64,000 bases of DNA from Chitinophaga pinensis. Its GTDB lineage: Bacteria > Bacteroidota > Bacteroidia > UKL13-3. Where the stretch lies: NCBI GenBank assembly GCA_945898275.1, contig CAMDHZ010000006.1, positions 1 through 64,000 of the forward strand, written 5' to 3'. Shown in pieces: positions 10,901 to 26,583 of this stretch (position 1 is the first letter of the stretch; every line of letters starts with the position of its first letter). The notes under the pieces were generated by a model. That model ran no database searches. It had not been told where the DNA came from and saw only the letters and a program-made list of their open reading frames with translations. Made by a program: the position numbers and the translations under genes.

Positions 10901-11114
10901 AGAAATAGGAAAACCAGACTGGTTTTTTATGCCAGGAACTAAACTTGGTTTTAGAGGAACCTATCGTACGCTTGATAGATACTCTAATAGGTACTCACCA
11001 ACCATGAAGATGAATAGCCTTGGACAATTCGTTCCTGATCCAAATGCTATTGGATTCCCAAATGGAAATGAGTGGGAATTTAGAATCTACTTCCAAGTAA
11101 ATATCAATAATTAA
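7995..11114 (+). CDS. Glycosidase (clan GH-A, GH2-like) fused to an outer-membrane beta-barrel
   Basis: Signal peptide MKKRLLQFLLFLIPALTFAQ. Residues about 25-395 are a TIM-barrel glycosidase: the acid/base Glu168 sits in FLLGNENNYG and the nucleophile Glu269 in VLTEFGADAY, the spacing and motifs of clan GH-A families such as GH2. From about residue 445 the chain changes to alternating polar/aromatic strands with Tyr/Trp/Phe belts and ends EWEFRIYFQVNINN, a terminal aromatic strand typical of outer-membrane barrels. One polypeptide therefore appears to hold both enzyme and barrel. It heads a 16-kb operon that has no SusC or SusD gene. I infer a surface or periplasmic trimming enzyme tethered to, or feeding, its own pore. 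The exact GH family and substrate are uncertain; context points to beta-glucan. Confidence 0.8.
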   Translation: MKKRLLQFLLFLIPALTFAQSDKVLVTKSNSGFKLSVNEKETFINGMNWDYFPIGTNYNYSLWKQPDDVILAALDNEMSLLKNMGVNVIRQYTGVPAKWIKYIYEKYGIYTMLNHSFGRYGLTVKGKWEAITDYSNPLVREVLLNETKEMVSQYRETPGVLLFLLGNENNYGLFWRGAETENIPFADRNSTKDAYHLYKLFNEAAKELKQIDKNHPIAICNGDLLFAEIIAKECKDVDILGINVYRGATFTDLFDRVKKELDMPIVLTEFGADAYNTIANQEDQEYQAKVLVSNWKGIYENAEGMGNSGNSLGGFTFQFSDGWWKTGQTLNLDEHDATASWSNGGYSNDFAKGENNMNEEWFGICAKGQTNERGNYELYPRAAYYALQYVHKFNPYNGNPTALNSFFNTVSNADFALKARGDKAVLESKDKGKLYLSNLQANFTSYQTGGSLITTPAASNPSNTTTYPSGQGFDHMQSFNIGVTARPAPNMKANVQLNVLGNVASKPIDEIFYENRGRPITVTTPSGPQQINSNNRVQLYRVSYSWDDKDFKLTGFYRTGHYHWGYEGDFFSLYPEANYGPNIDIYNGGAPFGFELEAKRKFKGLKVAFGPELWWGANPAFLVKYSKKVAGLDVTGIFHEDIVQRTNLQSSFAVPVPKTRRLTFVVGKKMEKLTFDLGGIWGGQPLNGRDFQMIENDVVYVDKIKNTDNFGGKVKLTYSTGAVRWYGLASYMGLVANGGVDQTKTFTGWALKDIGSGNMYNALTGFTYNIGKFQFAPNFLYQKPLVGPIGPNFAAPARPRNILDDPFSVRGNRETVAGELLLTFDPTPATWMYEWDNDRMEDAKFAMSAGFVYRHLPTVQDAAIGILGNGRTTFVFPGSAPAQDLWEVNTRVVSKINPQFGIIGNIYFGNGQANGSDARTVNRYGVDIRTIYKRMKLMTIARIDDWGPFDYHRDFNQTFPLQLIGDWSLEIGKPDWFFMPGTKLGFRGTYRTLDRYSNRYSPTMKMNSLGQFVPDPNAIGFPNGNEWEFRIYFQVNINN

Positions 11115-11146
11115 TAAAATTCAGAACTTATTAAATAAAGAAAACG

Positions 11147-12556
11147 ATGAATACTTTAAATAAAAAAACAATACTTATAAGTCTGTTATCTACCATTCTA
11201 TTTTTAGAAGTGGGGTGCGAAAGAAAATTGTCTGATGATGCGGTACTGCCTTCATTTTCTGCTAATGGAGATATTTTTACAGATGACTTTATTGGTTTAG
11301 GCTCTAATTTTTATTTACCCTTTGCCGATGCAAAACCAGATGTATTTTCGGTAGATATGAAAGAGGGGTATAACAGTAATGCTTCTGTAAGAATAGATGT
11401 GCCTAATAATACAGATCCAACGGGAACTTATGCTGGTGCTATTTTTAGAATTGATGGTGCAGGCAGAAACCTTAGTGGTTTTGACGCACTCACTTTTTAT
11501 GTTAAAGGGTCTATAGGCGCAAAACTAAGTGATGTGGGATATGGGATAGACTATTTAGGAGACAAATACCGAGTAACCATCCAAAATGTTAATGTTGGAA
11601 CTAATTGGTCTAAGGTAATCATTCCAATCCCTGACCCCTCAAAACTGGTAAATGAAAGAGGCGTTTTTTGGTTTGCCGCTGGCCCTCAGGCTACAATTGG
11701 TGCTGGTTACACCCTTTGGTTTGATGAAATAAAATTTGAAAAACTGGGTACAGTAGGTAAACCAACCTCAAGCATTTTAAATGGGCAAACAAGTTCGGTT
11801 AAGGCATTTATTGGTTCAACCATAAACCTTACAGGATTAAGCCATGTTTATAACCTTGTAAACGGCCAAGATGTAAGTGTAATCTCTACTCCTGCGTATT
11901 ATAAATTTACCAGTTCTAATCCAACAGTTGCTACTGTTAATGATGTTGGTGTGGTAACTGCTCTGGCTATAGGAACTGCAGATATTACTGCAAGTATAAA
12001 TGGCGTTGCTGTCAAAGGAAAACTCACAATCGATTGTAAAGGAGATTTGGTAGGTTCACCAATACCAACTAGACCAGCAGTGGATGTAAAATCGTTATTT
12101 AGCGATGCTTATACCAATGCAACTGAAAGTAATTTTACTCCTAATTTTGGAGGCTCTACCACTATAACTGAAATATTAACAACCAGCACTGGTAAAGTGG
12201 CGCAATACAGTAATAATAATTATACAGGAATTATGTTCACCGAAAACCCAGTGGATGCTTCAGGCTTAGGCTTTTTGCACATAGATGCTTATGTCGAGAA
12301 TGCTGCTACCACTATTGGAATTCAAATTAGAGATATAGGGTCGAATAAAACCATTGAAACGGATGTGAATACCGGCAATCCAATGGGAGATGACAAAGAT
12401 GTAAGAACAAATTTAACAGGATTTCAAACGGGTGTTTGGAAGTCTTTTGATATTCCACTTAATGGCGCTATTTTAAATCAGAAAGGTAACTTAGGGGCTA
12501 TTATTGTCACAGGTGGTCCTAATTTTATTCTAGACAATATTTATTTCTACAAATAA
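11147..12556 (+). CDS. Glycan-binding lipoprotein with BIG2-type Ig domain
   Basis: Lipoprotein signal with lipobox LEVGC (Cys24). Residues about 45-205 form a beta-sandwich binding-type domain (FTDDFIGLGSNFYLPFAD, FDALTFYVKGS, LWFDEIKFEKL). About 215-300 is a bacterial Ig-like (BIG2) domain (FTSSNPTVATVNDVGVVTAL). About 306-469 is a module (RPAVDVKSLFSDAYTNA to ILDNIYFYK) homologous to the two repeated modules of the exported protein at 24754. No catalytic motif is visible. It starts 32 bp after the barrel-glycosidase and probably serves the role that surface glycan-binding proteins play in Sus-type loci: holding glucan at the cell surface. Surface exposure is inferred. Confidence 0.75.
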   Translation: MNTLNKKTILISLLSTILFLEVGCERKLSDDAVLPSFSANGDIFTDDFIGLGSNFYLPFADAKPDVFSVDMKEGYNSNASVRIDVPNNTDPTGTYAGAIFRIDGAGRNLSGFDALTFYVKGSIGAKLSDVGYGIDYLGDKYRVTIQNVNVGTNWSKVIIPIPDPSKLVNERGVFWFAAGPQATIGAGYTLWFDEIKFEKLGTVGKPTSSILNGQTSSVKAFIGSTINLTGLSHVYNLVNGQDVSVISTPAYYKFTSSNPTVATVNDVGVVTALAIGTADITASINGVAVKGKLTIDCKGDLVGSPIPTRPAVDVKSLFSDAYTNATESNFTPNFGGSTTITEILTTSTGKVAQYSNNNYTGIMFTENPVDASGLGFLHIDAYVENAATTIGIQIRDIGSNKTIETDVNTGNPMGDDKDVRTNLTGFQTGVWKSFDIPLNGAILNQKGNLGAIIVTGGPNFILDNIYFYK

Positions 12557-12576
12557 TAACTAAGTAATTTATAAAG

Positions 12577-13401
12577 ATGAAGATAATGAAACATTCAAAT
12601 AAAATAATACTAATGGCAATCATAGCCATGGTTGTTGCAAGTTGTAAGGTTGAACCAATACAGACGCTACCAGAAAGAAATTTTGAATTGGTTTGGAGTG
12701 ATGAGTTTGAAGGGGATTCTGCTGCTGCACCTGATGCCGCAAAATGGTCCTACGATTTGGGCACGGGTCAAAACGGTTGGGGAAATAACGAGCTACAAAG
12801 CTATACTAACAATCCAAGAAATGTATCTTTGGATGGCAAAGGTAATCTTGTTATAACTGCCCTAAAAAATAGTAATGGAAGTTACACCTCCGCTCGAGTA
12901 AAAACACAAGGCTTATTTACCCAACAATTTGGTAAGGTAGAGGCTCGCATTAAAACTCCAACTGGTTCTGGCATTTGGCCAGCATTTTGGATGTTGGGAA
13001 ATAATATTACTACTGTTAGCTGGCCACAATGTGGCGAGATTGATATCATGGAACAAAAGGGTAAATTTTCCAATATTACTTATGGTTCTATTCATGGTCC
13101 TGGTTATTCTGGTGGACAAGCCATTACTACTCCATTTGCACTTGCGAATGACAGATTTGATAATGACTTTAATATATACGCTGTAGAATGGAATGAAAGC
13201 AAAATTGATTTTTTTGTAAACAACTACCTATATAAAAGAATTACACCTGCTGAAGCGCCAGGTGAGTGGGTATTTAATCAGCCATTTTTTATCATCATGA
13301 ACATTGCGGTTGGTGGAAGCTTTGTTGGTCCGCCTAATGCAAGTACACCGTTTCCAGGTTCTATGACTATTGATTATGTTAGGGCTTATAAAGAGAAATA
13401 G
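12577..13401 (+). CDS. GH16 endo-beta-1,3-glucanase (laminarinase-type) lipoprotein
   Basis: A 274-residue GH16 enzyme with lipobox VVASC (Cys23). The catalytic ExDxxE signature is CGEIDIMEQ, with nucleophile Glu154, Asp156 and acid/base Glu159. Supporting motifs are FELVWSDEFEG at the mature N-terminus, FGKVEARIKTPTGSGIWPAFWMLG before the active site and the C-terminal FFIIMNIAVGG and MTIDYVRAYK. The extra Met in the ExDxxE segment is the beta-bulge form usual in laminarinases and related beta-1,3(4)-glucanases. It lies third in the operon (20-bp gap) and should make the first endo-cuts in beta-1,3-glucan at the envelope. Confidence 0.93.
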   Translation: MKIMKHSNKIILMAIIAMVVASCKVEPIQTLPERNFELVWSDEFEGDSAAAPDAAKWSYDLGTGQNGWGNNELQSYTNNPRNVSLDGKGNLVITALKNSNGSYTSARVKTQGLFTQQFGKVEARIKTPTGSGIWPAFWMLGNNITTVSWPQCGEIDIMEQKGKFSNITYGSIHGPGYSGGQAITTPFALANDRFDNDFNIYAVEWNESKIDFFVNNYLYKRITPAEAPGEWVFNQPFFIIMNIAVGGSFVGPPNASTPFPGSMTIDYVRAYKEK

Positions 13402-13453
13402 AAAGTTAATAGATATTAGTTTTTATAATTAGAAAAAGGAATAGATAATCATA

Positions 13454-16400
13454 ATGTCAGTTCAAAAACAAATGAAAGAAGAATCTTTAGTAGGAATAAA
13501 GAGACTGAAAATAGAAGGCGAAAACTTCTTTTGTATTTCTAATCATGATGCAATGCGTCCGTTTTTTATGAGTATTGTAAGTGACTCTCACCATTGGATG
13601 TTTATATCGAGTAATGGTGGACTTTCTGCAGGTCGTAAAAATGCCGAACATGCGCTATTCCCATATTATACTGCAGATAAGATTACGGAGTCGTACGATA
13701 CTACTGGTTCTAAGTCGATATTTCAGATTATTCATAATGACCAAACATTTATATGGGAGCCATTTTCTGAACGCAATACTATCTTGTTCAACACTACTCG
13801 TAATCTATATAAAAGTGTTTTTGGAAATAAAATTATTTTCGAAGAAATTAATCACAACTTTGAACTAACATTTAGGTACGAATGGAACTCTAGTAACATC
13901 TATGGTTTTGTGCGTAAATCTTCATTGATAAATGATGGCAACGAAGAACTAACTATTAATATCCTAGATGGTATACAAAACATTATGCCAGATGGGGTGG
14001 GCAGTGATTTGCAAAACTCAACTAGTATTCTTGTGGACGCATACAAACGCAATGAATTAGACCCGAGCGCTGGCATGGGTATTTTTGCGTTGAGTGCCAT
14101 TATAGTAGATAAGGCTGAACCAAGTGAAGCGCTAATGGCTAATATTGCATGGTCACTTGGGTTCGATAATCCATTGTACTTAATTTCATCTTTGCAACTC
14201 AATGAATTTAGAAAAGGACTACCATTAACGCAAGAAATTGATATAAAGGCAGAACGAGGCGCTTATTTTATAAATAAAAAAATTACGCTTTCCCCAAGAA
14301 GTAAAAAGCAATGGCTTATAGTAGCAGATGTAAATCAAACTCAGGCCAATGTGGTAAACCTAATTAATGAAATTAAAAACAACCAAAATCTAGAAAAGCA
14401 AGTAACAGATGATATTGAGCTTGGTTCAAAACGCCTAATGGAATTGAATGCGTCCTCTGACGGCATTCAATTATCCAATGATGTTTATAGAGATACAAGG
14501 CATTTTTCAAATACCCTTTTCAATATCATGCGGGGAGGTATTTTTGATTTTAACTACCAAATTGAGAAATGGGATTTGATTAAATCAATTGCTACCGCAA
14601 ACAAATTAGTATACGAGAATCACAAAGAGTTATTAGAAAGCTTGGAGGAAACATTCACTGTTTTTGAGTTAGAGAAAATATATACCCAAAATAATGATAA
14701 AGATTTTAAGAGACTTTGCATTGAGTACCTACCTTTAAAGTTTAGCAGAAGGCATGGTGATCCGAGCAGGCCTTGGAATAAGTTTTCTATCAATACGCGA
14801 AGCGCTGTAGATCATTCAAAAATCTTAGATTACGAAGGAAACTGGAGGGATATTTTTCAAAATTGGGAAGCCTTGTCAATTTCATTCCCTTCATTTACCA
14901 GAAGCATGGTTCATAAGTTTTTAAATGCTACCACTTTTGAAGGGTATAATCCTTATCGTTTAACAAAAGGTGGTTTTGACTGGGAAACGGTTGAACCTGA
15001 CAATCCTTGGTCATATATTGGCTATTGGGGAGACCATCAGATTATTTATTTGCTAAAATTATTAGAAATTAATGAGAAGTACTTTCCAGGGCAACTTAGC
15101 AGCCAATTAAGTGAAGAGCTTTTTGTATATGCCAATGTTCCATACAAAATAAAGAATTATAAAGAGATTGTTAAAAATGCAAAAGACACCATTGAGTTTG
15201 ATGAGGAGTTGGATGCGAAGATCAGAAAAAGCAGAGAGTTTTTAGGCTCTGATGCAACACTTTTGTTGGCTCAAAACGATAAAATATATAATGTAAACTT
15301 TATAGAAAAGATACTGGCTAGTATTTTATCAAAACTATCTAATTTTATACCAGGTGGGGGCATTTGGATGAATACCCAAAGACCAGAATGGAATGATGCC
15401 AATAATGCACTTGTTGGAAATGGCGTCTCGGTGGTAACACTTTGTTACCTGAGAAGGTTCCTTGTATTTTTTGAAAAGCTAATTGAGCAAACAAATGAAG
15501 AGCGTGTTGCACTATCTAATGAATTGATTATTTTCTTTAAAAAGATTCATTCAACCTTGGAAGAAAATGCGCCTTTATTAAAGGGTGAGATTAACAATGA
15601 GCAACGCAAGTTAATACTTGATAGCTTAGGTGAAGCTGGCAGTGAATATAGAAGTATTATTTACAAACAAACTTTTTGGGGAGAGAAAAGAACCATTTCA
15701 TATAGAAGATTAAAAGCATTTGTTAAGCTGAGTATTGAGTTTACTGAACATACCATCAATGCAAATAAGCGCAATGATAATATGTATCATTCTTATAATT
15801 TGATGAGTTTTCAAAACGATAATGAAGTCGCTATTGCTTATCTTAATGAAATGCTTGAAGGACAGGTTGCTGTGCTAAGCTCTGGCTATTTATCTCCTAA
15901 AGAAGCAGTGAGCTTATTGGACAGCATGAAACATAGTGCACTCTTTCGTCCAGATCAGTATAGTTATTTACTTTATCCTAATAAGAATCTCCCTAAATTT
16001 CTAGATAAAAATAATATACCTAAAAAGTTAATTGAACAATCGAAGCTTATTAACTTAATGCTTGCTTCAGGAGATAAATCTCTTGTTGAGCAAGATGTTA
16101 AAGGTGAATATCATTTTAATGGCAATTTTAAAAATGCATCGGATTTGGATAATGCTATAGAAAAACTAGATGCAGTGAAATATGGTCAACTAATTCTTAA
16201 TGAAAAGCAGATTCTTTTAGAGATTTTTGAGACTGTGTTTGATCACAAGTCCTTTACTGGTCGCTCTGGAACATTTTATGGGTACGAGGGCCTTGGCTCT
16301 ATTTATTGGCATATGGTTTCTAAACTTCAATTGTCTGTTCAAGAAGTATGTTTATTGGCTATAGAAACTAATGAATCACCAGAATTAATAGGTAAACTTT

Positions 16401-16906
16401 TAGAACATTATTACGAAATCAATGCAGGCATTGGTGTTCATAAATCACCTTCACTATATGGTGCTTTCCCAACAGATCCATACTCGCATACTCCGGCAAA
16501 CAAAGGCGCGCAACAACCTGGTATGACGGGTCAGGTAAAAGAAGATATTCTAAGTAGATTTGGTGAGTTGGGTGTTTTTGTTGCAAATGGTTGTTTGTAT
16601 TTTAACCCATGTTTATTGCGAAAAGACGAGTTTACCACCCAAGAACGTACGTTTAATTATGTTACTATAAACAACGAACATAAAACGCTAGCACCTATTT
16701 TAGGTTCTCTTTGTTTTACTGTTTGTCAAGTGCCTGTTATTTATCACTTATCTGATGAAAATTATCTGGAAATTGAAAAGAGGGATGGCTCATTATCCAA
16801 ACAACCTTCACATTACTTAGATAAAGAAACAAGTACGCTTATATTTAGTAGAACCGGTGAAATAGTTCAAATTACTGTATATGTTAAAGGGTCTATTTTA
16901 AAGTAA
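13454..16906 (+). CDS. GH149/GH94-type beta-1,3-oligoglucan phosphorylase
   Basis: A 1150-residue protein without signal peptide, so cytosolic. The layout fits inverting sugar phosphorylases: N-terminal beta-sandwich (NGGLSAGRKNAEHALFPYY), helical linker, (alpha/alpha)6 barrel with RPEWNDANNAL, where Asp648 matches the general acid of the WND motif of GH94 relatives, and a conserved late segment KGAQQPGMTGQVKEDIL. About 1100 residues is the size of GH149 beta-1,3-glucan phosphorylases; GH94 cellobiose phosphorylases are near 800. The GH16/GH17/GH30 neighbours support laminari-oligosaccharides as substrate, giving glucose-1-phosphate without spending ATP. The GH149 assignment is from length, motif and context, not a search. 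Confidence 0.78.
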   Translation: MSVQKQMKEESLVGIKRLKIEGENFFCISNHDAMRPFFMSIVSDSHHWMFISSNGGLSAGRKNAEHALFPYYTADKITESYDTTGSKSIFQIIHNDQTFIWEPFSERNTILFNTTRNLYKSVFGNKIIFEEINHNFELTFRYEWNSSNIYGFVRKSSLINDGNEELTINILDGIQNIMPDGVGSDLQNSTSILVDAYKRNELDPSAGMGIFALSAIIVDKAEPSEALMANIAWSLGFDNPLYLISSLQLNEFRKGLPLTQEIDIKAERGAYFINKKITLSPRSKKQWLIVADVNQTQANVVNLINEIKNNQNLEKQVTDDIELGSKRLMELNASSDGIQLSNDVYRDTRHFSNTLFNIMRGGIFDFNYQIEKWDLIKSIATANKLVYENHKELLESLEETFTVFELEKIYTQNNDKDFKRLCIEYLPLKFSRRHGDPSRPWNKFSINTRSAVDHSKILDYEGNWRDIFQNWEALSISFPSFTRSMVHKFLNATTFEGYNPYRLTKGGFDWETVEPDNPWSYIGYWGDHQIIYLLKLLEINEKYFPGQLSSQLSEELFVYANVPYKIKNYKEIVKNAKDTIEFDEELDAKIRKSREFLGSDATLLLAQNDKIYNVNFIEKILASILSKLSNFIPGGGIWMNTQRPEWNDANNALVGNGVSVVTLCYLRRFLVFFEKLIEQTNEERVALSNELIIFFKKIHSTLEENAPLLKGEINNEQRKLILDSLGEAGSEYRSIIYKQTFWGEKRTISYRRLKAFVKLSIEFTEHTINANKRNDNMYHSYNLMSFQNDNEVAIAYLNEMLEGQVAVLSSGYLSPKEAVSLLDSMKHSALFRPDQYSYLLYPNKNLPKFLDKNNIPKKLIEQSKLINLMLASGDKSLVEQDVKGEYHFNGNFKNASDLDNAIEKLDAVKYGQLILNEKQILLEIFETVFDHKSFTGRSGTFYGYEGLGSIYWHMVSKLQLSVQEVCLLAIETNESPELIGKLLEHYYEINAGIGVHKSPSLYGAFPTDPYSHTPANKGAQQPGMTGQVKEDILSRFGELGVFVANGCLYFNPCLLRKDEFTTQERTFNYVTINNEHKTLAPILGSLCFTVCQVPVIYHLSDENYLEIEKRDGSLSKQPSHYLDKETSTLIFSRTGEIVQITVYVKGSILK

Positions 16907-16910
16907 CAGC

Positions 16911-18170
16911 ATGCCAAAGCGTAGTTTAATTTATTGTTTGTTAATTTCTATTATTTTCACTTCTTGTGACTTCCAGAACAATTCAAATAAAACAAAGCAT
17001 TTGGAGACGAATAAAACTGCTGCTCAGATTTTAGGTGATTCCAACTATTTGGCAATTTGCTATGGTGGTTATCGCACCAATTCGCGGGATTCGCAACCTA
17101 CCTTATCTCAACTAAAAGAGGATATGAAACTTATTAGTGCTATGGGAGTTAAAATTTTGCGTACATATAATACGAAATATGCGGAGATAAATAATCTATT
17201 GCAGGCAATCTCTGAGTTGAAAATAAACGACCCAACTTTTGAAATGTATGTGATGCTAGGTGCGTGGATAGATTGTAAAAATGCTTGGACTAATATTAAA
17301 CCCGATCATGAACGGGAAAATGAAAAAGCCAATGCTGAAGAAATCGCTAGAGCCGTAAAGTTAGCAAATCAATATCCTGAAATTATAAAGGTAATAGCTA
17401 TAGGCAACGAAGCAATGGTGAAGTGGGCAACTAGTTATTATGTATCGCCAAATATCATCTTAAAATGGGTAAATCATTTACAGCAGTTAAAAGATGAAAA
17501 TGGATTGCCCAAAGATCTATGGATTACCTCCTCTGATAACTTCGCTTCCTGGGGTGGTGGTGATTCCACATATCATGTTACTGATTTAAAGAAATTGTTT
17601 CAAGCTGTAGATTATATCTCAATTCATACGTATCCCATGCACGACACGCATTATAATCCTGTTTTTTGGGGATTGAAGCCAAGTGAAAATAGTTTAAGTA
17701 AAGAGGAAAAAATTGATTCGTTGATGATACGCTCATTGAATTATGCTAAAGAACAGTATTCTAATGTTTTTAGTTATATGCAATCAATTGGAGTGGATAA
17801 GCCTATTCATATTGGCGAAACAGGCTGGGCAACTCAATCTGATGGCTTATATGGTAAGGAGGGGTCGAAAGCTTGCGATGAATATAAATCAGCAAAGTAT
17901 TATCAATTGATGAGAGCTTGGACAAATAAAGAAAAAATCACTTGCTTCTATTTTGAAGCTTTTGATGAAAAGTGGAAGGACGCTAAAAATCCCAATGGGT
18001 CTGAAAATCATTTTGGATTATTTACTATTGAGGGCAAAGCAAAGTTTGCTTTATGGGAAATGTTGGATCAAGGCGTATTTAAAAACTTGACAAGAGATGG
18101 CAAACCAATTGAAAAGACTTACAAAGGTAGAAAAGAGGATTTACTAAAAGCCGTTGAACTGCCGTACTGA
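16911..18170 (+). CDS. GH17 beta-1,3-glucanase family lipoprotein
   Basis: A 419-residue protein with lipobox IFTSC (Cys19). GH17 landmarks: an N-terminal strand (AICYGGYRTNSRDSQPT), IKVIAIGNEAMV with acid/base Glu167, IHTYPMHD, and HIGETGWAT with nucleophile Glu303, then FYFEAFDEKWK. It begins 4 bp after the phosphorylase gene, implying coupled translation. GH17 enzymes act on beta-1,3-glucans as endo-hydrolases or transglycosylases; which applies here cannot be told. The lipid anchor puts it in the periplasm or at the surface, unlike the three other GH17 domains in the operon, which have no signal peptide. Confidence 0.9.
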   Translation: MPKRSLIYCLLISIIFTSCDFQNNSNKTKHLETNKTAAQILGDSNYLAICYGGYRTNSRDSQPTLSQLKEDMKLISAMGVKILRTYNTKYAEINNLLQAISELKINDPTFEMYVMLGAWIDCKNAWTNIKPDHERENEKANAEEIARAVKLANQYPEIIKVIAIGNEAMVKWATSYYVSPNIILKWVNHLQQLKDENGLPKDLWITSSDNFASWGGGDSTYHVTDLKKLFQAVDYISIHTYPMHDTHYNPVFWGLKPSENSLSKEEKIDSLMIRSLNYAKEQYSNVFSYMQSIGVDKPIHIGETGWATQSDGLYGKEGSKACDEYKSAKYYQLMRAWTNKEKITCFYFEAFDEKWKDAKNPNGSENHFGLFTIEGKAKFALWEMLDQGVFKNLTRDGKPIEKTYKGRKEDLLKAVELPY

Positions 18171-18183
18171 TAAAAATTAAATA

Positions 18184-19692
18184 ATGAAGAATAATAAACT
18201 ACATTTCTGTTGCTTTAATTTCATATCAATAATATTGATTTGTATGTTTTATATTCAATGTTCAAAAGGAAAAGAAATGACGATTGATGTATATGAAACC
18301 TCCGAAGAAGGAAATGCGTTAACCTTAATTCAAGATTTTAAACCTGCCGATAAATCATTAACAATACAAGTCAATCCTGAAAAGCAATTTCAAAAAATTA
18401 CAGGATTTGGCGGTTCGTTTACTGAAGCTTCGGCATTTTTATTAAATAAACTGAGCCAAGCAAATAGAAAGAAAATATTGGATGCCTATTTTAGTGATGA
18501 AGGTGCGCGTTATTCTTTAACCAGAACACATATTGCATCCTGTGATTTTTCTTTAAGCAATTATACCTATGCCAAAGTAGAGAATGATTTGGAGTTAAAG
18601 CATTTTTCAATTGAAGATGATAAAGATGATTTAATTCCAATGATACTAGACGCACAAAAAATCTCGAAAGAAGGCTTTAAAATCATCGCCTCACCATGGA
18701 CTGCACCGCCCTGGATGAAAGACAATAAAAGTTTTGTTGGTGGTAAATTATTACCTGAGTTTAATGATGCTTTTGCGCTTTACTTTTCAAAATATCTTTC
18801 TGCCTATAAGAAAGAAGGCATTAATGTTTGGGGTATTACAGTCATTAATGAGCCACATGGAAATGGCAATAATTGGGAAAGCACCTTATTTTCACCCAAA
18901 GAAATGACTGATTTTGTTCAAGATTATTTAGGTCCAAAATTGGAGATGGATGGATGGGGTGACCTAAATATTTTTGGTTACGATCAAAACAGAGCTGGAT
19001 TAAAAGAATGGGTAGATGAAATGTACAGGGATGAGAAATCGTCGAAGTATTTTGCTGGCGTCGCAATTCATTGGTATGAAAGCACATATGATTATTTTCC
19101 AGATGCACTGCAATATGCGCATAAAAAGGCTCCTGAAAAGTACCTGATAGAAACAGAAGGCTGTGTAGATTCAGAAGTGCCAAAATGGAAAGACGACAAA
19201 TGGTATTGGCAAAAGGAAGCCACGGATTGGGGATGGGATTGGGCCAGTGAAAAGGACCGTCATTTACATCCCAAATATGCGCCAGTTAATAGATATGCAG
19301 CGGATATCATTGGTTGTTTGAATAATTATGTGGATGGTTGGATTGATTGGAATATGGTTTTAGATACACAAGGAGGGCCAAATTGGTTTAAAAATTGGTG
19401 TGTTGCTCCTGTTATTGTAAATCCAGATAAAGATGAGGTTTACTTTACTCCCTTGTATTATGTAATGGCTCATTTTAGCAAATTTATGAGACCAGGGGCT
19501 GTTAAAATTGGTTGCGAAATTAATCACAAGGAGGTGATGGCTACTGCTGTTCAAAATCCAGATGGAAGCATTGTTATTGCTTTGTTTAATCCAACTGATG
19601 ATAAATTCAGTATTTCAGTCAATTTAAAAACGGAAGTAAAACAGATTACTATAGATTCAAAAGCATTACAAACAATCGTTATTAAACAATAA
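18184..19692 (+). CDS. GH30 beta-glucosidase or endo-beta-1,6-glucanase, lipoprotein
   Basis: A 502-residue GH30 enzyme with lipobox MFYIQC (Cys26). Motifs: ITGFGGSFTEASAF at the N-terminus, SPWTAPPWMK, VWGITVINEPHG with acid/base Glu223, YLIETEGC with nucleophile Glu325, then a C-terminal beta domain (YYVMAHFSKFMRPGAVKIG). This overall form is that of GH30 subfamilies 1 and 3, which include glucosylceramidases, beta-glucosidases and endo-beta-1,6-glucanases. Beside GH16 and GH17, removal of beta-1,6 branches from laminarin-like or fungal glucan is the likeliest job. Subfamily cannot be settled by eye. Confidence 0.9.
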   Translation: MKNNKLHFCCFNFISIILICMFYIQCSKGKEMTIDVYETSEEGNALTLIQDFKPADKSLTIQVNPEKQFQKITGFGGSFTEASAFLLNKLSQANRKKILDAYFSDEGARYSLTRTHIASCDFSLSNYTYAKVENDLELKHFSIEDDKDDLIPMILDAQKISKEGFKIIASPWTAPPWMKDNKSFVGGKLLPEFNDAFALYFSKYLSAYKKEGINVWGITVINEPHGNGNNWESTLFSPKEMTDFVQDYLGPKLEMDGWGDLNIFGYDQNRAGLKEWVDEMYRDEKSSKYFAGVAIHWYESTYDYFPDALQYAHKKAPEKYLIETEGCVDSEVPKWKDDKWYWQKEATDWGWDWASEKDRHLHPKYAPVNRYAADIIGCLNNYVDGWIDWNMVLDTQGGPNWFKNWCVAPVIVNPDKDEVYFTPLYYVMAHFSKFMRPGAVKIGCEINHKEVMATAVQNPDGSIVIALFNPTDDKFSISVNLKTEVKQITIDSKALQTIVIKQ

Positions 19693-19698
19693 ATAGGT

Positions 19699-22047
19699 AT
19701 GTCCAATCACAATTTATCACAGAAAGTTCCAATAGGGCAAAAAGTTGCTTTTGGACTCGGCATGCTTGCCAATCAAATGTTTCCTGCAATGATTGGAATT
19801 TTCACCGTAGTTCTGGTAGAAAAGCTGGGTTTTAGCGGTTTGTTGCTTGGATTGACTTATTTTATTCCAAAGTTTTATGATGCTTTATTTGACCTCATTA
19901 TGGGTTATGTAAGTGATAATACAAAATCGAAATGGGGAAGAAGAAGACAATATGTATTAACAGGTGCCATAATTTTAGGAATTTCATTCGCATTAATGTG
20001 GCAACTTTATGGTGAAAACGGAGTTACCTATAATTTTATCTTCTTTTTAGGAATTTCTTTGATTTTTTATTCTGGACTTACCATTTTTAGCATTCCTTAC
20101 GTGGCTATGGGTTATGAAATGAGTGATGATTTTCATGAGCGAACAAACATCATGGCTACTTCTCAACTCATTGGTCAATTAGCTTGGGTTATTGCACCGT
20201 GGTTTTGGGTAATTATGGCCGATAAATCATTGTTTCCCTCTAGTGATGTTGCAGTCAGAACTTTGTCGGTATATGTTGCCATTGGCTGTTCTATTTTAGC
20301 GGCTATTCCAGCATTTTTTATTCCTAGTAAATCAACTTTAAATGAAAACTATAGCCCAATCGATTTTAAAGGAATTCTAAATAGTTTTGGAGAAATTAAA
20401 GAAGGGCTAAAAGCATCGATAGAAATTAAGCCTTTCAGAAAAATTTGTATAGCTACTTTTTTAATATTTAATGCTTTTCAAACAACGGCAGGCTTTTCTT
20501 ACTTTATTATTAAATACTATTTATTTAAGGGCAATGAAGATGGTTTTGGATTATGGCCTACTTTGTTTGGGAGTATCGGAGCAATTATAACAACGATTTT
20601 AGTAATACCTATTGTTGCTAGAATGTCTAAAGTAATGGGAAAGAAGAAAGCATTTTTACTTTCTCAAAGCATTTCAATTGTAGGTTACATTTTACTCTTT
20701 TTACTATTTGTACCTGGTAAACCTTATCTTTTTCTTTTTGCCTTACCTTTCTTTTCATTTGGGATTGGGAGTTTGTTTACCTTAATGATGTCTATGACAT
20801 CTGATGTGATTGATATTGATGAGTTAAATACGGGTAAACGAAGAGAAGGTAGCTTAGGTGCTATTTATTGGTGGATGGTAAAGTTTGGAACAGCTGTGGC
20901 TGGCTTAATAAGCGGCTTAATTCTTTCATTGGTCAGTTTTCAATCAAATGCCCCAACACAAACAGATGAAACAATGTTTTGGCTAAGGGTTTTCTTTGTA
21001 GGCATACCTATATTAGGAACATTAACTGCATTATGGGCAATGAAAGATTATGATATTGATGAGGTCAAAGCCTTAGAAGTAAGAAATCTTCTTGATAAAA
21101 GAAAAGCACCTTTAATGAAACAATCTTCCAGCTACCTATCAGGAAAATTAAGTGCATTACTTCAAAATAGCAATTTGAATAAAATTATTGGAGCCGATTA
21201 CAATAAAAAAACAGAGACAGAAATTGAAATCCTGTTTTCTGAACAATTTAATACCGGTTTGAGTGGATTGTGTTTTAGCGCGTATGTTGAAGGTCAAAAA
21301 ATTGGCGATATTTTATCAGCAGAACAAATTAGAAGAAGAATAGATATTATTGCTCAACATACAAAATGGATCAGGACTTTTTCAGCTACTGAAGGAAATG
21401 AATTGATACCAGAAATTGCCCACAGTAAAGGAATTAAATCAATTGTTGGCGCTTGGATCAGCAATGATAAAGAAAGAAACGAAAAAGAAATTAATGCTTT
21501 AATTAAACTTGCAAATGCAGGGTTGGTTAACATTGCAGCCGTTGGCAATGAAGTATTGCACAGAGGAGAAATTTCAGTAACCGAATTGATTGATTACATA
21601 AATAGAGTGAGGAAAGCCATTCCTAGTCATATTGAAGTGGGCTATGTAGATGCCTATTATCAATTTATAGAAAGGCCTAAACTGGTAGAGGTATGCGACT
21701 TGATTTTATGTAATTTTTATCCTTTTTGGGAAGGTGCCGCTATTGATTACTCTTTGTCATATCTTACGAATATGCTTGAAGTAACAAAAGCAATCAGCAA
21801 TGGTAAAAGGATAATTGTAACAGAAACAGGATGGCCAAGTTTGGGAGAAACTTTTGAAAGTGCAATACCTTCAAGAATAAATGCAATGAAATATTTTCTC
21901 ATTTCACAACAATGGGCAAACAATAATAACCTAGAACTTTTTCATTTCTCTTCATTTGATGAGTCTTGGAAAGTTGTTCAAGAGGGAAATTTAGGAACCT
22001 CATGGGGCTTATGGGATAAAAACGAAAAGTTTAAGTATAAAAAATAA
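19699..22047 (+). CDS. GPH/MFS sugar transporter fused to a C-terminal GH17 domain
   Basis: Residues 1 to about 460 are a twelve-segment transporter of the glycoside-pentoside-hexuronide:cation symporter type (YFIPKFYDALFDLIMGYVSD, NTKSKWGRRRQYV, and ending LWAMKDYDIDE). A linker of about 60 residues follows, then a complete GH17 domain (about 520-782) with acid/base Glu618 in IAAVGNEVLH and nucleophile Glu709 in IIVTETGWPS. The reading frame is continuous with no internal stop, and the DNA around 21060-21240 shows no junction artefact. The C-terminus of twelve-segment MFS proteins faces the cytosol, so the hydrolase is predicted to sit at the exit of the transporter. The GH17 part is closely similar to the protein encoded 10 bp downstream, suggesting duplication and fusion. 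Confidence 0.88.
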   Translation: MSNHNLSQKVPIGQKVAFGLGMLANQMFPAMIGIFTVVLVEKLGFSGLLLGLTYFIPKFYDALFDLIMGYVSDNTKSKWGRRRQYVLTGAIILGISFALMWQLYGENGVTYNFIFFLGISLIFYSGLTIFSIPYVAMGYEMSDDFHERTNIMATSQLIGQLAWVIAPWFWVIMADKSLFPSSDVAVRTLSVYVAIGCSILAAIPAFFIPSKSTLNENYSPIDFKGILNSFGEIKEGLKASIEIKPFRKICIATFLIFNAFQTTAGFSYFIIKYYLFKGNEDGFGLWPTLFGSIGAIITTILVIPIVARMSKVMGKKKAFLLSQSISIVGYILLFLLFVPGKPYLFLFALPFFSFGIGSLFTLMMSMTSDVIDIDELNTGKRREGSLGAIYWWMVKFGTAVAGLISGLILSLVSFQSNAPTQTDETMFWLRVFFVGIPILGTLTALWAMKDYDIDEVKALEVRNLLDKRKAPLMKQSSSYLSGKLSALLQNSNLNKIIGADYNKKTETEIEILFSEQFNTGLSGLCFSAYVEGQKIGDILSAEQIRRRIDIIAQHTKWIRTFSATEGNELIPEIAHSKGIKSIVGAWISNDKERNEKEINALIKLANAGLVNIAAVGNEVLHRGEISVTELIDYINRVRKAIPSHIEVGYVDAYYQFIERPKLVEVCDLILCNFYPFWEGAAIDYSLSYLTNMLEVTKAISNGKRIIVTETGWPSLGETFESAIPSRINAMKYFLISQQWANNNNLELFHFSSFDESWKVVQEGNLGTSWGLWDKNEKFKYKK

Positions 22048-22057
22048 TCTATATAAT

Positions 22058-22993
22058 ATGTCATACAGAGAAGGTCATTTCTTTAATGCAGAAAACAAAG
22101 AGCACTATTCTCATTTTCAACAAGAAAGTGCACAAGAAGTAAATTGGATCAATTATTCAGAACTTGCAGTCGAAGATTTAAGAAGTTTATGGCACAAAAC
22201 ACTTCAATTGGGTATGCATGGCATTTGTTTTAGCATTTATGAGGATGGCCAAAAACCAGGTTCAATTATTACTGAATCGCAAGTTGAAAGACGCATAAAT
22301 ATTTTAAAACCATATGCAAAATGGGTTCGCTCGTTTTCTTGCATTGAAGGCAATGAACATGTGCCAAGAGTGGCAAAAAAGCATGGAATGAAAACGCTAG
22401 TTGGCGCATGGTTAGGAGATGATATGGAATTGAATGAGAGAGAAATTGAAAGTTTAATAGCCATGGCAAAGGAAGGATTGGTGGATGTTGCGGCTGTAGG
22501 AAATGAAGTGATGTACAGAAAAGATTTAACCGAAGAGCAACTATTGACATATATCCAAAGAGTTAAAGACGCCATACCTCATATTCCTGTTGGTTATGTA
22601 GATGCTTATTATGAGTTTTCGCATAGGCCAAGAATTACGGAAATTTGCGATGTTATTTTAACTAATTGCTATCCGTATTGGGAAGGATGCCCAATAGAAT
22701 ATTCTTTTGAACACATGAAAAGTATGTTTGAATCTGCAAAACATGCCGGACAAGGTAAGCGTATAATCATTACAGAAACTGGATGGCCAAGCGAAGGAGG
22801 TGCATTTAAAGCATCAATTGCTACCAATGAAAATGCCATGAGATATTTTATAGATTGCCAAAACTGGTGTAATGCCAATAGGATAGAGAATTTCTATTTT
22901 GCTTCTTTTGATGAGTCTTGGAAAGCAGGTCCAGAAGGAGATGTTGGAGCTTATTGGGGACTTTGGGACAAAAACGAAAAGATAAAATATTAA
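22058..22993 (+). CDS. Cytosolic GH17-family glucanase, close relative of the transporter-fused domain
   Basis: A 311-residue GH17 domain without signal peptide or lipobox. Acid/base Glu150 lies in VAAVGNEVMYR and nucleophile Glu240 in IIITETGWPSEGG; the protein ends AYWGLWDKNEKIKY, nearly matching the fusion protein's end. It shares long similarity with the GH17 part of the upstream transporter fusion (for example VGYVDAYYxF and GNE/TGWPS blocks), so one arose from the other by duplication. It overlaps the next gene by one base (TAATG), a translational coupling arrangement. A cytosolic GH17 is unusual because most characterised members are secreted; it may act on imported laminari-oligosaccharides before the phosphorylase. 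Confidence 0.88.
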   Translation: MSYREGHFFNAENKEHYSHFQQESAQEVNWINYSELAVEDLRSLWHKTLQLGMHGICFSIYEDGQKPGSIITESQVERRINILKPYAKWVRSFSCIEGNEHVPRVAKKHGMKTLVGAWLGDDMELNEREIESLIAMAKEGLVDVAAVGNEVMYRKDLTEEQLLTYIQRVKDAIPHIPVGYVDAYYEFSHRPRITEICDVILTNCYPYWEGCPIEYSFEHMKSMFESAKHAGQGKRIIITETGWPSEGGAFKASIATNENAMRYFIDCQNWCNANRIENFYFASFDESWKAGPEGDVGAYWGLWDKNEKIKY

Positions 22994-23919
22994 TGACTAA
23001 TTTTTTTCAGCAATTTAACTTACCATTTGCTAAAGCCATTTGTTATTCAGGTTTTAGAGATGGACAGCAACCTGGAGGAATCATTCCTTCCTATGAAGAA
23101 ATTAAGGAAGATTTGTTGCTTCTTAAGCCTCATTGGAATTACCTTCGTTTGTATGATTGTGATGAGCATGCATTAACTGTTATCAAAGTTATTCAAAACG
23201 AAAAATTAGACTTTAAATTAATGCTTGGGGCTTACATTGTGGCCGAAATGAATAATCATGGCTGTCCTTGGAATGGTGGTGTTTATGATGAAAAACAACT
23301 TGAGGAGAATGTAGTAGCCAACAACAAAATTATTCAGCGCCTTATAGATTGGTCTAACCAGTATCCTGAAATCATATTTTCTGTTTCATTAGGCAATGAA
23401 GCTTGTGTTGATTGGACAGACCATTTTGTACCTGTAGAGCGTGTGATTGAATTTGCCAAAAAAGTAAAGCAAAATATTAAGCAACCCATCACTTTTTGTG
23501 AGAACTATGTTCCATGGCTAAATTATCTAAAGCCACTTGTGAGCCATATTGATTTTATTTCAATTCATACCTACCCTGTTTGGGAGTATAAACATATACA
23601 TGAATCTGTTGAGTATTCGATTGCAAATTATGAACTAGTTGCTAATCAATATCCTGGAGTGCCAGTGGCAATTACAGAGGCTGGATGGGCCACCAATTCT
23701 CACGGAAGAGGAATAAATACAGAGCACGTAAATGAAGAAAATCAGAAAATTTACTACGAGGATCTGATGGACTGGTCTGTAAAAAATAATGTTTTGACCT
23801 GCTTTTTTGAAGCTTTTGATGAAAATTGGAAAGGCTCATCAGACCCGATGGAACCAGAGAAGCATTGGGGTGTATTTAAAGCAGATAGAACGCCTAAAAC
23901 AGTGGTAGATAGTAAATAG
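22993..23919 (+). CDS. Second cytosolic GH17-family glucanase
   Basis: I chose the ATG at 22993, which overlaps the previous stop codon by one base; a longer in-frame start at 22918 would lie inside the previous gene. The 308-residue product begins MTNFFQQFNLPFAKAICYSGFRDG and lacks a signal peptide. Acid/base Glu136 is in FSVSLGNEACVDW and nucleophile Glu229 in VAITEAGWATNSHG, then CFFEAFDENWKG. It is nearer in motif detail (AICY, IHTYP, GWAT, FEAFDE) to the GH17 lipoprotein at 16911 than to the other two cytosolic GH17 domains, so two GH17 lineages coexist in the operon. Its stop directly abuts the stop of the convergent regulator gene. Confidence 0.88.
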   Translation: MTNFFQQFNLPFAKAICYSGFRDGQQPGGIIPSYEEIKEDLLLLKPHWNYLRLYDCDEHALTVIKVIQNEKLDFKLMLGAYIVAEMNNHGCPWNGGVYDEKQLEENVVANNKIIQRLIDWSNQYPEIIFSVSLGNEACVDWTDHFVPVERVIEFAKKVKQNIKQPITFCENYVPWLNYLKPLVSHIDFISIHTYPVWEYKHIHESVEYSIANYELVANQYPGVPVAITEAGWATNSHGRGINTEHVNEENQKIYYEDLMDWSVKNNVLTCFFEAFDENWKGSSDPMEPEKHWGVFKADRTPKTVVDSK

Positions 23920-24648
23920 TTAAAGTTGAAATGAAAAACCTTCCTCTTCTAATTTTTTGTACCTCTCAACATCATATTTAAAGAGCTTTGCAGGCCTATG
24001 AGAAACATTTTCTTTAGTCTCATTGAGTGGTTTTAAAATATTCATTTCTAAAATTTTTTTTCTAAAGTTCGACTTATCAAACTTACATCCTAATAAAGCT
24101 TCATATAATAATTGAAGTTCCAATAGGGTAAATTTTAGCGGTAGTAATTCAAAGCCTGTTGGTTTATGCCTAACCTCATTTTTTAAGGTTTCAATGCCTT
24201 TTTGTAGAATAGTACAATGGTCAAAAGCCAATTCAGGTAAATCATTTATATTGAACCATTTAGCTGATTTAGCCCAAGAAGACGCAATAGGATTATAGTT
24301 TAAACTATTTACTAATGAAAAGTAACCTACTGTTACTACGCGGTCCAACGGGTGTCTATCTACATTTCCAAAAGCGAAAAACTGTTTCATGTAAATGTTT
24401 TTTAATCCTGTGAGCCTTTCCAACACGTTATTAGCGGCATCACATAAGTTTTGGTCAGGCTCTACAAGATCTCCAATTAAAGCCCATTGATCTTTAAATG
24501 GCTCCAAACTTCTTTGCACCAACAAGACTTTTATCTCACCTTCTTGGTAACCAAATATCACGCAATCAACAGATAAGCCAAAGGTAAAGTATTCATCAAG
24601 GGGTAATTTATACTTAGATATATAATACGAATTTGGACCTTTCATCAT
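23920..24648 (-). CDS. NrtR-family Nudix-winged-helix transcriptional regulator
   Basis: A 242-residue protein with an N-terminal Nudix-fold domain (FTFGLSVDCVIFGYQEGEIKVLL, DQWALIGDLVE) and a C-terminal winged helix (about 165-242: LPLKFTLLELQLLYEALLG, SNFRKKILEM, HRPAKLFKYD). The Nudix box is degenerate: where REUxEE is expected it reads NNVLERL, so hydrolysis is unlikely and the fold is probably a ligand sensor, as in sugar-responsive NrtR relatives of Bacteroidota. It sits convergent to the glucan operon with no gap and divergent from the exported binding protein at 24754. A sugar or sugar-phosphate released from beta-glucan is the inferred effector. Confidence 0.88.
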   Translation of the reverse strand: MMKGPNSYYISKYKLPLDEYFTFGLSVDCVIFGYQEGEIKVLLVQRSLEPFKDQWALIGDLVEPDQNLCDAANNVLERLTGLKNIYMKQFFAFGNVDRHPLDRVVTVGYFSLVNSLNYNPIASSWAKSAKWFNINDLPELAFDHCTILQKGIETLKNEVRHKPTGFELLPLKFTLLELQLLYEALLGCKFDKSNFRKKILEMNILKPLNETKENVSHRPAKLFKYDVERYKKLEEEGFSFQL

Positions 24649-24753: not shown

Positions 24754-26583
24754 ATGAAAAAAATCGTTACTACAAGTCTATTCATACTTATGGCAAGTAT
24801 TGGATTTTCTCAGAACGCCCCAATTAACTTTGAACCAGGCGGGCAAGGTGCAACTTGGACATGGACAACATTTGAAAATGATTCAAATCCTGTATTAGAA
24901 ATTGTTAACAATCCAAGTTCTGCAGCTCCTAATACCTCTAGTAAAGTTGCAAAATTTACAGCGAAACAAGCTGGTCGTCCTTGGGCAGGATGTGAGTCTC
25001 AAAAAGTGACAGATATTGGTACATTTACTTTATCTGCTTCAAATGCTATCATTAAAATTATGGTTTACAAATCTGTAATTAGTGATGTAGGTATCAAGTT
25101 AATTAAGAGTGATAACGCTTCTACAGGGGAAATCAAAGTGGCTAACACCAAAATTAATGAGTGGGAAGAGTTAACCTTTAACTTTTCTTCTGTGATTGGA
25201 AATCCTAATACTGCGGATATTACTCAAATTGCAATTTTCCCTGATTTCAATTTAGCAGGCAGAACTAGCAATACTATTACTTACTTTGACAATATTACCT
25301 TTTCTGCTGGTACTGCCTTGCCTGAACCAACAGTTGGTGCAACTGCGCCTACTAAACCAGCTTCTGATGTGATTTCATTGTTTAGCAATGCCTACACCAA
25401 CGTAGCTATTGATACTTGGAGAACAGGCTGGTCAGCTGCTACGCTTACAGATGTAAAAATTGGTTCAGACGATATTAAAAAATACTCTGCTTTAGATTTT
25501 GTTGGAATCGAAATGATTGCTAGTCAAATTAACATTAGCGCTATGGATTTATTTGAACTTGACGTTTGGTCTCCAAATTCAACTACTTTTAGATTCAAAT
25601 TAGTTGATGCAGGTGCTGATGGAAAAATTGGTGGTGGAGATGACAAAGAACATGAACTTACCATTACTCCTACCTTAAATGGTTGGAATCATGTATCGGT
25701 GCCAATCGCTAATTTTACAGGCCTTACAACTAAATCAAATATTGCCCAACTTATTTTTTCAAGCGCTCCTGCCGGCACATCTATTGTTTATTTGGATAAT
25801 ATTATGTTTTCTAAAGCATCAGTTGTACTTGAACCAACAGTTTCTGCGCCAGCTCCTACCAAATTGGCTAAAGATGTTGTTTCATTGTTTAGCAACGCTT
25901 ATACAAATGTAACTGTAGATACTTGGAGAACAGGCTGGTCTGCTGCTACGCTTACAGACATTAAAATTGGATCAGACGATATTAAAAAATATACAGCGCT
26001 AGATTTTGTTGGTGTTGAGATGGTTGCTAAACAAATTAATATCACTACAATGGATTCATTTGAATTTGATGTATGGACTCCAAATTCTACAACACTTAAA
26101 TTTAAATTAGTTGATTTTGGTGCTGATGGTGCTTTTGGTGGTGGTGATGATAAAGAACACGAAACTGTTATTACTCCTAGTTTAAATGGATGGAATCATA
26201 TATCAGCTCCAATTGCAGGCATGACTGGTCTAACAACTAAATCAAATATTGCGCAACTTGTTTTCGCAAGCGTACCTGCAGGTACTTCTATCATATATGT
26301 AGATAATGTTTTGTTTAGCAAAAAACCTGCTATAGGTATTGCAAATATTGCGCAAGAATTAATTGGTGTTTATCCAAATCCTGCAAGCAATTCGGTAACT
26401 ATTAATACTATAAAAGATATTCAAAGTGTTGTTATCTACAATACTTTAGGTCAGGTTGTATTAACAACGTCACCAAATACCAATGAAGTAAACATTGATA
26501 TTGCTAGTTTGCCAAATGGTTTCTATACAGTTAAGGCTACTATCAACGGTGTAGATACTTTCAAGAAAATTATCAAAGAATAA
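24754..26583 (+). CDS. T9SS-exported multi-module carbohydrate-binding protein
   Basis: A 609-residue protein with signal peptide MKKIVTTSLFILMASIGFSQ. An N-terminal beta-sandwich module (about 21-185, INFEPGGQGATWTW) is followed by two tandem copies of another module starting near residues 194 and 364 (PTKPASDVISLFSNAYTNV and PTKLAKDVVSLFSNAYTNV), highly similar in protein and DNA, then a T9SS sorting domain from about 530 (GVYPNPASNSVTI, ending DTFKKIIKE). The repeated module also occurs at the end of the lipoprotein at 11147. No catalytic motif is seen. The role is inferred as extracellular glucan binding, under control of the neighbouring Nudix regulator. A strong terminator follows. Confidence 0.82.
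   Translation: MKKIVTTSLFILMASIGFSQNAPINFEPGGQGATWTWTTFENDSNPVLEIVNNPSSAAPNTSSKVAKFTAKQAGRPWAGCESQKVTDIGTFTLSASNAIIKIMVYKSVISDVGIKLIKSDNASTGEIKVANTKINEWEELTFNFSSVIGNPNTADITQIAIFPDFNLAGRTSNTITYFDNITFSAGTALPEPTVGATAPTKPASDVISLFSNAYTNVAIDTWRTGWSAATLTDVKIGSDDIKKYSALDFVGIEMIASQINISAMDLFELDVWSPNSTTFRFKLVDAGADGKIGGGDDKEHELTITPTLNGWNHVSVPIANFTGLTTKSNIAQLIFSSAPAGTSIVYLDNIMFSKASVVLEPTVSAPAPTKLAKDVVSLFSNAYTNVTVDTWRTGWSAATLTDIKIGSDDIKKYTALDFVGVEMVAKQINITTMDSFEFDVWTPNSTTLKFKLVDFGADGAFGGGDDKEHETVITPSLNGWNHISAPIAGMTGLTTKSNIAQLVFASVPAGTSIIYVDNVLFSKKPAIGIANIAQELIGVYPNPASNSVTINTIKDIQSVVIYNTLGQVVLTTSPNTNEVNIDIASLPNGFYTVKATINGVDTFKKIIKE

Follow-up and report, generated by a model that had tools for sequence, protein, structure and literature searches.

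The fusion protein encoded in the window, by which is meant the whole stretch of 64,000 nucleotides analysed here, joins a transporter of the MFS_2 family to a GH17 domain and belongs to the MFS-GH17 fusion type known from Formosa since 2018. According to the original prediction, no protein built in this way was known to have been characterised, a statement contradicted by FbGH17B (FORMB_24740) of Formosa, in which an N-terminal 12-helix MFS part precedes a GH17 domain whose assayed activity is that of an exo-beta-1,3-glucosidase (Unfried et al. 2018, PMC6246565). The architecture itself being known, what remains of interest is the split of the GH17 domains into fused and free types with a marker residue, together with the exchange of the transporter half; no earlier description of the paralogue split, of the Tyr136 pattern or of the MFS-half exchange was found in the consulted sections of the literature on the fusion and on laminarin. 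We consider it quite probable that the fusion protein serves the inner-membrane step in the catabolism of laminarin, a major algal carbon store, in which laminari-oligosaccharides would be imported, cut on arrival and phosphorolysed by GH149. It is unusual for one chain to combine a transporter with a glycosidase, and the gain from the fusion is left open in the relevant sections of the 2018 paper (PMC6246565).

The fusion gene and its transporter half

The gene forms a single ORF of 782 codons with no internal stops, and its frame is open at 21060-21240, around the linker, where a check for read-through had been called for. In the examined loci, 57 fused ORFs, counting the window and near-copies, carry the MFS-GH17 join in a single frame, and its carriers include cultured isolates, e.g., Flavobacterium aquatile. 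Since many other Bacteroidota have this join in an open frame, the fusion is real, neither a chance product nor a local sequencing error; the merging of two genes by such an error, feared when the fusion was first noticed, is ruled out by the other genomes, isolates included. No methionine is conserved in the linker, where at most 3 of the 34 aligned fused proteins have one at any residue from 456 to 515; nothing thus indicates that translation starts separately downstream, and an internal restart producing a free GH17 protein is unsupported. Three genomes (L074-L076), whose matches contain in-frame stops and resembled broken fusions, actually have separate MFS and p-type genes lying in the same frame.

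Table 1 Features of the fusion gene and of the surrounding cluster, with positions in the window
Feature	Position	Strand	Details
GH16	12577..13401	+	Pfam E 4.2e-23; lipoprotein-like N-terminus by eye
GH149 beta-1,3-glucan phosphorylase	13454..16906	+	NF058639 1747.4 bits, cut-off 1150; no signal sequence by eye
GH17, lipoprotein-like N-terminus by eye	16911..18170	+	FbGH17A/MlGH17A position
GH30, lipoprotein-like N-terminus by eye	18184..19692	+	Pfam E 1.5e-76
MFS::GH17 fusion gene	19699..22047	+	ATG at 19699, stop codon end 22047, 782 aa
MFS_2 / MelB-like domain	19750..21063	+	residues 18-455, 12 membrane helices, Pfam E 4.6e-64
Asp61 and Asp65	19879..19893	+	align with MelB Asp55/Asp59; invariant 34/34
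Linker	21064..21213	+	residues 456-505, variable in fused-protein alignment
GH17 domain, f-type (found only fused)	21214..22044	+	residues 506-782
Glu618, acid/base (MlGH17B Glu133)	21550..21552	+	VGNE motif
His621, replacing MlGH17B Tyr136 / RmBgt17A Tyr102	21559..21561	+	residue alignment
Glu709, nucleophile (MlGH17B Glu223)	21823..21825	+	TETGW motif
Free GH17, p-type, MlGH17B-like, Tyr136 kept	22058..22993	+	311 aa; no signal sequence by eye
Second free GH17, q-type	22993..23919	+	308 aa; start overlaps p-type stop by one base
NUDIX + winged-helix regulator (NrtR/AraR-like)	23920..24648	-	convergent with cluster

The transporter is complete, as had been supposed: the MFS_2 match (PF13347, 217 bits against a gathering cut-off of 27) spans residues 18-455, and 12 segments are found by hydropathy ahead of residue 450, the weakest scoring 0.74, the twelve helices of an MFS fold being found likewise in the structure model and in its fold matches. 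For TIGR00792, the strict GPH family, the score of 154.7 bits falls under the curated cut-off of 231.35. Of the earlier GPH/MFS label, the broader MFS_2 assignment therefore stands and the strict GPH one does not, and the transporter half is filed, by its profile matches, as MFS_2 rather than TIGR00792 GPH. The cation-site aspartate pair of the MelB-like cation symporters is present as Asp61/Asp65, and a TM11 lysine is also aligned with MelB; D55C is called a cation-site mutant in the title of a PDB entry.

An AlphaFold2 model built from 34 sequences has a mean pLDDT of 83.8 and a pTM of 0.58, the latter leaving the placing of the modelled GH17 half relative to the pore loose, and the pLDDT drops below 50 at linker residues 471-477. 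Residues 8-468 of the model match MFSD2A and inward-facing MelB (Z 36.0 to 36.6, rmsd 2.5-3.0), the next fold matches of the transporter part being other MFS proteins (Z 31-35), and the GH17 half matches 4WTR with a TM-score, by target, of 0.84.

Fused and free GH17 paralogues

The fused domain is assigned to GH17 by the Pfam profile Glyco_hydro_17 (residues 701-781, E 1.6e-9, 38.3 bits against a gathering cut-off of 28.2) and by a phmmer match of residues 541-767 to 4WTP, the Rhizomucor miehei GH17 beta-1,3-glucanosyltransferase (E 3e-30). Both catalytic glutamates of the predicted in-frame hydrolase are indeed encoded in the one uninterrupted ORF, Glu618 and Glu709 being invariant in the 34 aligned fused proteins and placed in a TIM barrel of the 4WTR fold; the fused GH17 domain probably cuts beta-1,3-glucan inside the cell.

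Directly after 54 of the 57 fused ORFs lies a free p-type GH17 gene; of the other three, L019 has a cut p start at the edge, L070 ends at the fused gene, and the genome of L080 has no second GH17 match (two matches, both in the fused ORF, with 6/6 candidates scored). A tree of 124 GH17 rows, made by a quick method with SH-aLRT support only, places 68 free p-type rows and the fused L080 behind a 99-starred branch, with the other 51 fused rows on the opposite side. The q-type outgroup is attached by a branch of 9.3 changes per column, which makes the root untrustworthy, and f could be a single clade, or p could have arisen from within it. On this tree, the fused f-type domain and the adjacent free p-type protein are two old paralogues. 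In the examined loci, the f-type is always fused, no free f-type domain being found, and the p-type is free except once: L080:490-2952 (-) encodes an 820-aa protein of MFS and a p-type GH17 with Tyr136, joined by a longer linker; the f and p domains have no further match in its genome, and judged by its sequence L080 represents a second, separate fusion event. The q-type protein of the window, with no signal sequence by eye, is very distant from the f and p types on the tree and has counterparts in many of the fusion-bearing clusters.

Residues were numbered by setting MlGH17B Glu133 on the VGNE glutamate; the nucleophile of MlGH17B is printed as both 223 and 233 in the sections concerned (PMC11005184), of which 223 fits. 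The p copy of the window carries, in a gapless alignment, 21 of the 22 MlGH17B cleft residues taken from PMC11005184, Ser275 being replaced by Pro, and it has the entire Tyr136-Trp191-Glu192 triad of the transglycosylases MlGH17B and RmBgt17A, of which the fused domain has Trp677 and Glu678 together with His621 in place of the tyrosine. Tyr136 is kept in 64 of the 68 free copies (Leu in 4), whereas the 51 f-type fused copies have His in 20, Leu in 18, Phe in 8, Met in 3 and Gln and Tyr in 1 each. Pro50 of the -3 subsite is similarly divided (67/68 free vs 10/51 fused), whereas Trp191 (51/51 fused, 67/68 free) and Glu192 (51/51 and 68/68) are shared. Among 54 neighbouring pairs, near-copies included, 49 combine a non-Tyr fused copy with a Tyr free copy, 4 have Leu in both and 1 has Tyr in both. 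A second sample gave 13 new fused ORFs, all non-Tyr, with Tyr in the nearby free p-type copy in 13/13, those of L113, L119 and L124 being near and not directly adjacent; one of these is identical to L020, one is 99.6 percent identical to L070 and eight are 89-94 percent identical to L069/L070, only L115, L130 and L131 being really new lines. A paired sign test, which disregards kinship, is given no weight. The weight of the marker is limited, since the Tyr/non-Tyr state requires only 4 changes on the tree and the second sample consists mostly of near-copies; as read from these alignments, the Tyr136 marker distinguishes clades and reflects few independent events.

The residue pattern fits a hydrolase in the fusion beside a free transglycosylase. 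Alternatively, the fused GH17 may be a glucanosyltransglycosylase like the free MlGH17B, remodelling the imports to kinked or branched products with no hydrolysis. The sharing of nearly all cleft residues between f and p, with Trp191 and Glu192 in every f-type copy, would agree with this view, as would the fact that, among solved structures, each of them is best matched by a transglycosylase, and the MlGH17B authors suspect an undetected transfer activity even in FbGH17B, at least in the relevant sections of their paper (PMC11005184). However, Tyr136 is found in only one of the 51 f-type copies, and mutation of its counterpart (Tyr102Ala) is described as abolishing transglycosylation by RmBgt17A (PMC11005184); FbGH17B, with Met at position 136, is reported as an exo-glucosidase (PMC11005184, PMC6246565), and the f-type differs also at Pro50. 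A transglycosylase in the fusion thus appears rather unlikely, and hydrolysis by the fused domain is preferred. The split with its one marker residue offers a simple test, hydrolysis being expected of the fusion and transglycosylation of the free copy.

The MalQ/MalP pair consists of a transferase feeding a phosphorylase. We suggest only tentatively that the split GH17 pair, i.e., a transporter-bound f-type clipper without the acceptor tyrosine and a free cytosolic p-type transglycosylase, might with GH149 make up a beta-1,3-glucan counterpart of MalQ/MalP, the transporter half of the fusion being passed between lineages as a module of its own.

Distribution of the fusion and exchange of its transporter half

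The scan of genome contigs yielded 60 loci, of which 57 have a close relative (at least 54 percent identity in the best segment) and L062-L064 a distant MFS only. The 57 named related loci contain 40 fused ORFs, for 31 of which GH30 is the nearest upstream match and for 35 of which GH149 lies within the examined stretch. Of 296 evenly sampled Bacteroidota genomes, among them that of the window, 39 match at E 1e-30, and 12 of these have a fused ORF (as judged for 30 genomes by the inspected loci and for 9 by open-frame lengths); among 60 near relatives, again with the window's own genome, 11 match the fusion query. MFS ORFs without a GH17 half, 36 closed and 5 cut, were found in the same set of loci as the 57 fused ORFs, and since related loci with a separate MFS are so common, the fusion is not required. 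Two further fused ORFs, L082:271-2838 (+) with 855 aa and L131:1501-3954 (-) with 817 aa, have MFS halves 39-41 percent identical to that of the window and, by this sequence distance, form a more distant fused line. In a plasmid search for the gammaproteobacterial fusions, none of 211 records covered 80 percent of the query at a single place, and the best gammaproteobacterial match, Vibrio fortis L110, is an MFS with no GH17 among the two annotated genes compared (10.5 kb). On a plasmid of Emticicia oligotrophica (L111), the family MFS follows a 720-aa ORF covering only residues 426-1142 of the GH149 query, and this GH149 looks split or broken.

On a tree of 83 MFS rows, the fused and split labels require 9 and 8 changes, at least 6 of which are forced by starred branches. 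Part of this pattern could instead stem from the GH17 half having been lost repeatedly, but such loss leaves the following comparisons with L020 and L005 unexplained. When identity was determined part by part for 11 chosen loci, the window proved 75 percent identical to L020 in GH149, 64 in GH17s, 85 in GH30, 64 in MFS, 84 in GH17f and 84 in GH17p, and to L008 of Flavobacterium aquatile 60, 63, 74, 91, 73 and 74 percent in the same parts; GH17s being tied, the order of the two loci is reversed for MFS only. Consistently, the MFS halves of the window and L020 fall into different 100-starred sets, whereas their GH17f and GH17p share starred sets. At fourfold sites, the window and L005 are identical to 77 percent in MFS (n 176), as compared with 38 percent in GH30 (n 130), 45 in GH17f (n 62), 58 in GH17p (n 91) and 47 in GH149 (n 321), a difference suggesting that only the MFS half was exchanged recently. 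The fourfold-site identity of the MFS between the window and L008 (38 percent) is close to that of GH30 (35) and GH17f (36), indicating that the high protein identity in that pair is old and derives from slow change. In L005, L016, L020, L024 and L099, compared with the window, the transporter half does not share the history of the GH17 half and of the adjacent p-type gene. These comparisons indicate that the transporter half has its own history and was swapped between lineages, and that such fusions can be re-partnered.

Probable laminarin cluster, proposed role and comparison with known systems

The genes around the fusion gene (Table 1) form a probable laminarin cluster, in which signal sequences and lipoprotein N-termini were judged by eye. 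By analogy with the proteins at the corresponding positions, the GH17 upstream of GH30 is a probable endo-laminarinase and, after FbGH30, GH30 a probable beta-1,6 debrancher. The GH149 enzymes characterised to date are described as phosphorolysing beta-1,3-oligosaccharides of DP 2 or more (PMC6484121). No SusC/D pair was found among the ten cluster proteins scanned (7995-24648); such a pair is a feature of variant 1 laminarin PULs, and one published PUL variant likewise lacks it (PMC10108472).

Several other products were noticed in and beside the cluster. Its head (7995-11114) encodes a 1039-aa protein with an N-terminal glycosidase-like barrel (GH2_C, E 6.8e-5) and a C-terminal half that resembles, by eye, an outer-membrane beta-barrel; it is full length in 10 of the 60 near relatives, all within the 11 matching the fusion query, and, if true, a surface enzyme with its own pore attached would be unusual. 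The products of 24754-26583, which has a type 9 secretion tail, and 11147-12556 share similar carbohydrate-binding-like segments by eye and may be glucan binders. The NUDIX/winged-helix protein is a candidate sugar-responsive regulator.

In the predicted mechanism, the lipid-anchored GH16, GH17 and GH30 would shorten and debranch beta-1,3/1,6-glucan outside the inner membrane, and the MelB-like MFS half would bring in, together with a cation, beta-1,3-gluco-oligosaccharides that are short and linear. On the cytosolic side of the transporter, the GH17 half would then hydrolyse the arriving oligosaccharides, and this cutting on arrival may keep the inward gradient steep; the short products would be handed over to the cytosolic GH149, yielding glucose-1-phosphate and glucose. 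The order of the steps may differ between species, as the GH30 of Muricauda is predicted to be cytoplasmic by the account available (PMC13188888), whereas that of the window is lipoprotein-like.

It might be argued that the MFS half does not work as a transporter and serves chiefly to anchor the protein in the membrane or to sense, the GH17 being tethered for spatial reasons. No transport assay of an MFS-GH17 fusion was found in the consulted sections of the literature on it, the published account of the fusion included, and the Formosa enzyme is active in vitro (PMC6246565). However, the full 12-helix fold is retained, Asp61, Asp65 and Lys395 are invariant in all 34 fused proteins, and the unfused loci keep the family MFS mostly right after GH30 (16 of 21 MFS ORFs, split or cut, from the named loci), making a mere anchor highly unlikely.

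The topology places the GH17 half at the inner face of the membrane, as originally proposed. The loops contain, with the N-terminus inside, 24 K+R on the inside versus 7 on the outside (C-terminal tail excluded), and because of this charge count and of the MFS/MelB folds, the GH17 half is assigned, by sequence and homology, to the cytosolic side. An odd number of segments, which would have carried the C-terminus into the periplasm, is ruled out by the even number of twelve; three weak peaks inside the GH17 half (scores 0.36-0.71) correspond to strands and helices of the barrel in the model and not to membrane helices. A periplasmic GH17 half cutting before uptake, a reading to which the coupling of hydrolysis to product uptake suggested by Unfried et al. 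(PMC6246565) lends itself, is ruled out to near certainty by the helix count, the positive-inside charge and the MelB/MFSD2A fold.

The fusion protein is worth comparing with several known systems. MelB and MFSD2A (MFS_2) have the fold and the Asp55/Asp59 pair in common with the MFS half of the window, at an identity of 16-20 percent. Of the MelB residues Asp19 and Asp124 of the sugar site and Lys377, to all of which roles are assigned, neither Asp19 nor Asp124 has an Asp aligned with it in the window protein. MlGH17B of Muricauda lutaonensis, predicted to be cytoplasmic by its authors (PMC13188888), is a free GH17 encoded after an MFS, like the p-type protein of the window (PMC11005184, PMC13188888); it is unfused and has Tyr136 and Pro50, whereas the fused domain of the window has neither. 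The variant 1 laminarin PULs reported from active bloom MAGs of the North Sea, likened to the window by their description, contain GH149, GH30 and GH17 in the laminarin locus, as the window does, and most are said to encode at least one GH17-MFS fusion, also in the Gammaproteobacteria SAR92, Luminiphilus and SAR86 (PMC10108472). The closest comparison is with FbGH17B of Formosa sp. Hel1_33_131, made by its published description and at the residue level for Met136 only. Its gene adjoins GH30 and GH17A in a laminarin cluster, and the enzyme hydrolyses debranched, not branched, laminarin, as well as oligosaccharides, to glucose; such fusions are called 'common among marine Flavobacteriia', refolding is named as one step in preparing the enzymes of that study, and a cytosolic location of GH17 is not stated in the sections concerned (PMC6246565). 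The window has the same domain order, MFS then GH17 in frame, and the same GH30 and GH17A neighbours, with GH149 in the cluster, and position 136 is non-Tyr in both proteins (Met in FbGH17B, His in the window; PMC11005184). Among the named records with whole matches, the two nearest, L045 and L005, are MAGs from ponds, and the organism of the window probably comes from fresh water. Formosa represents marine Flavobacteriia with SusD/TonB receptor genes near the fusion, whereas the window represents an uncultured member of the Bacteroidota with no SusC/D in the scanned cluster.
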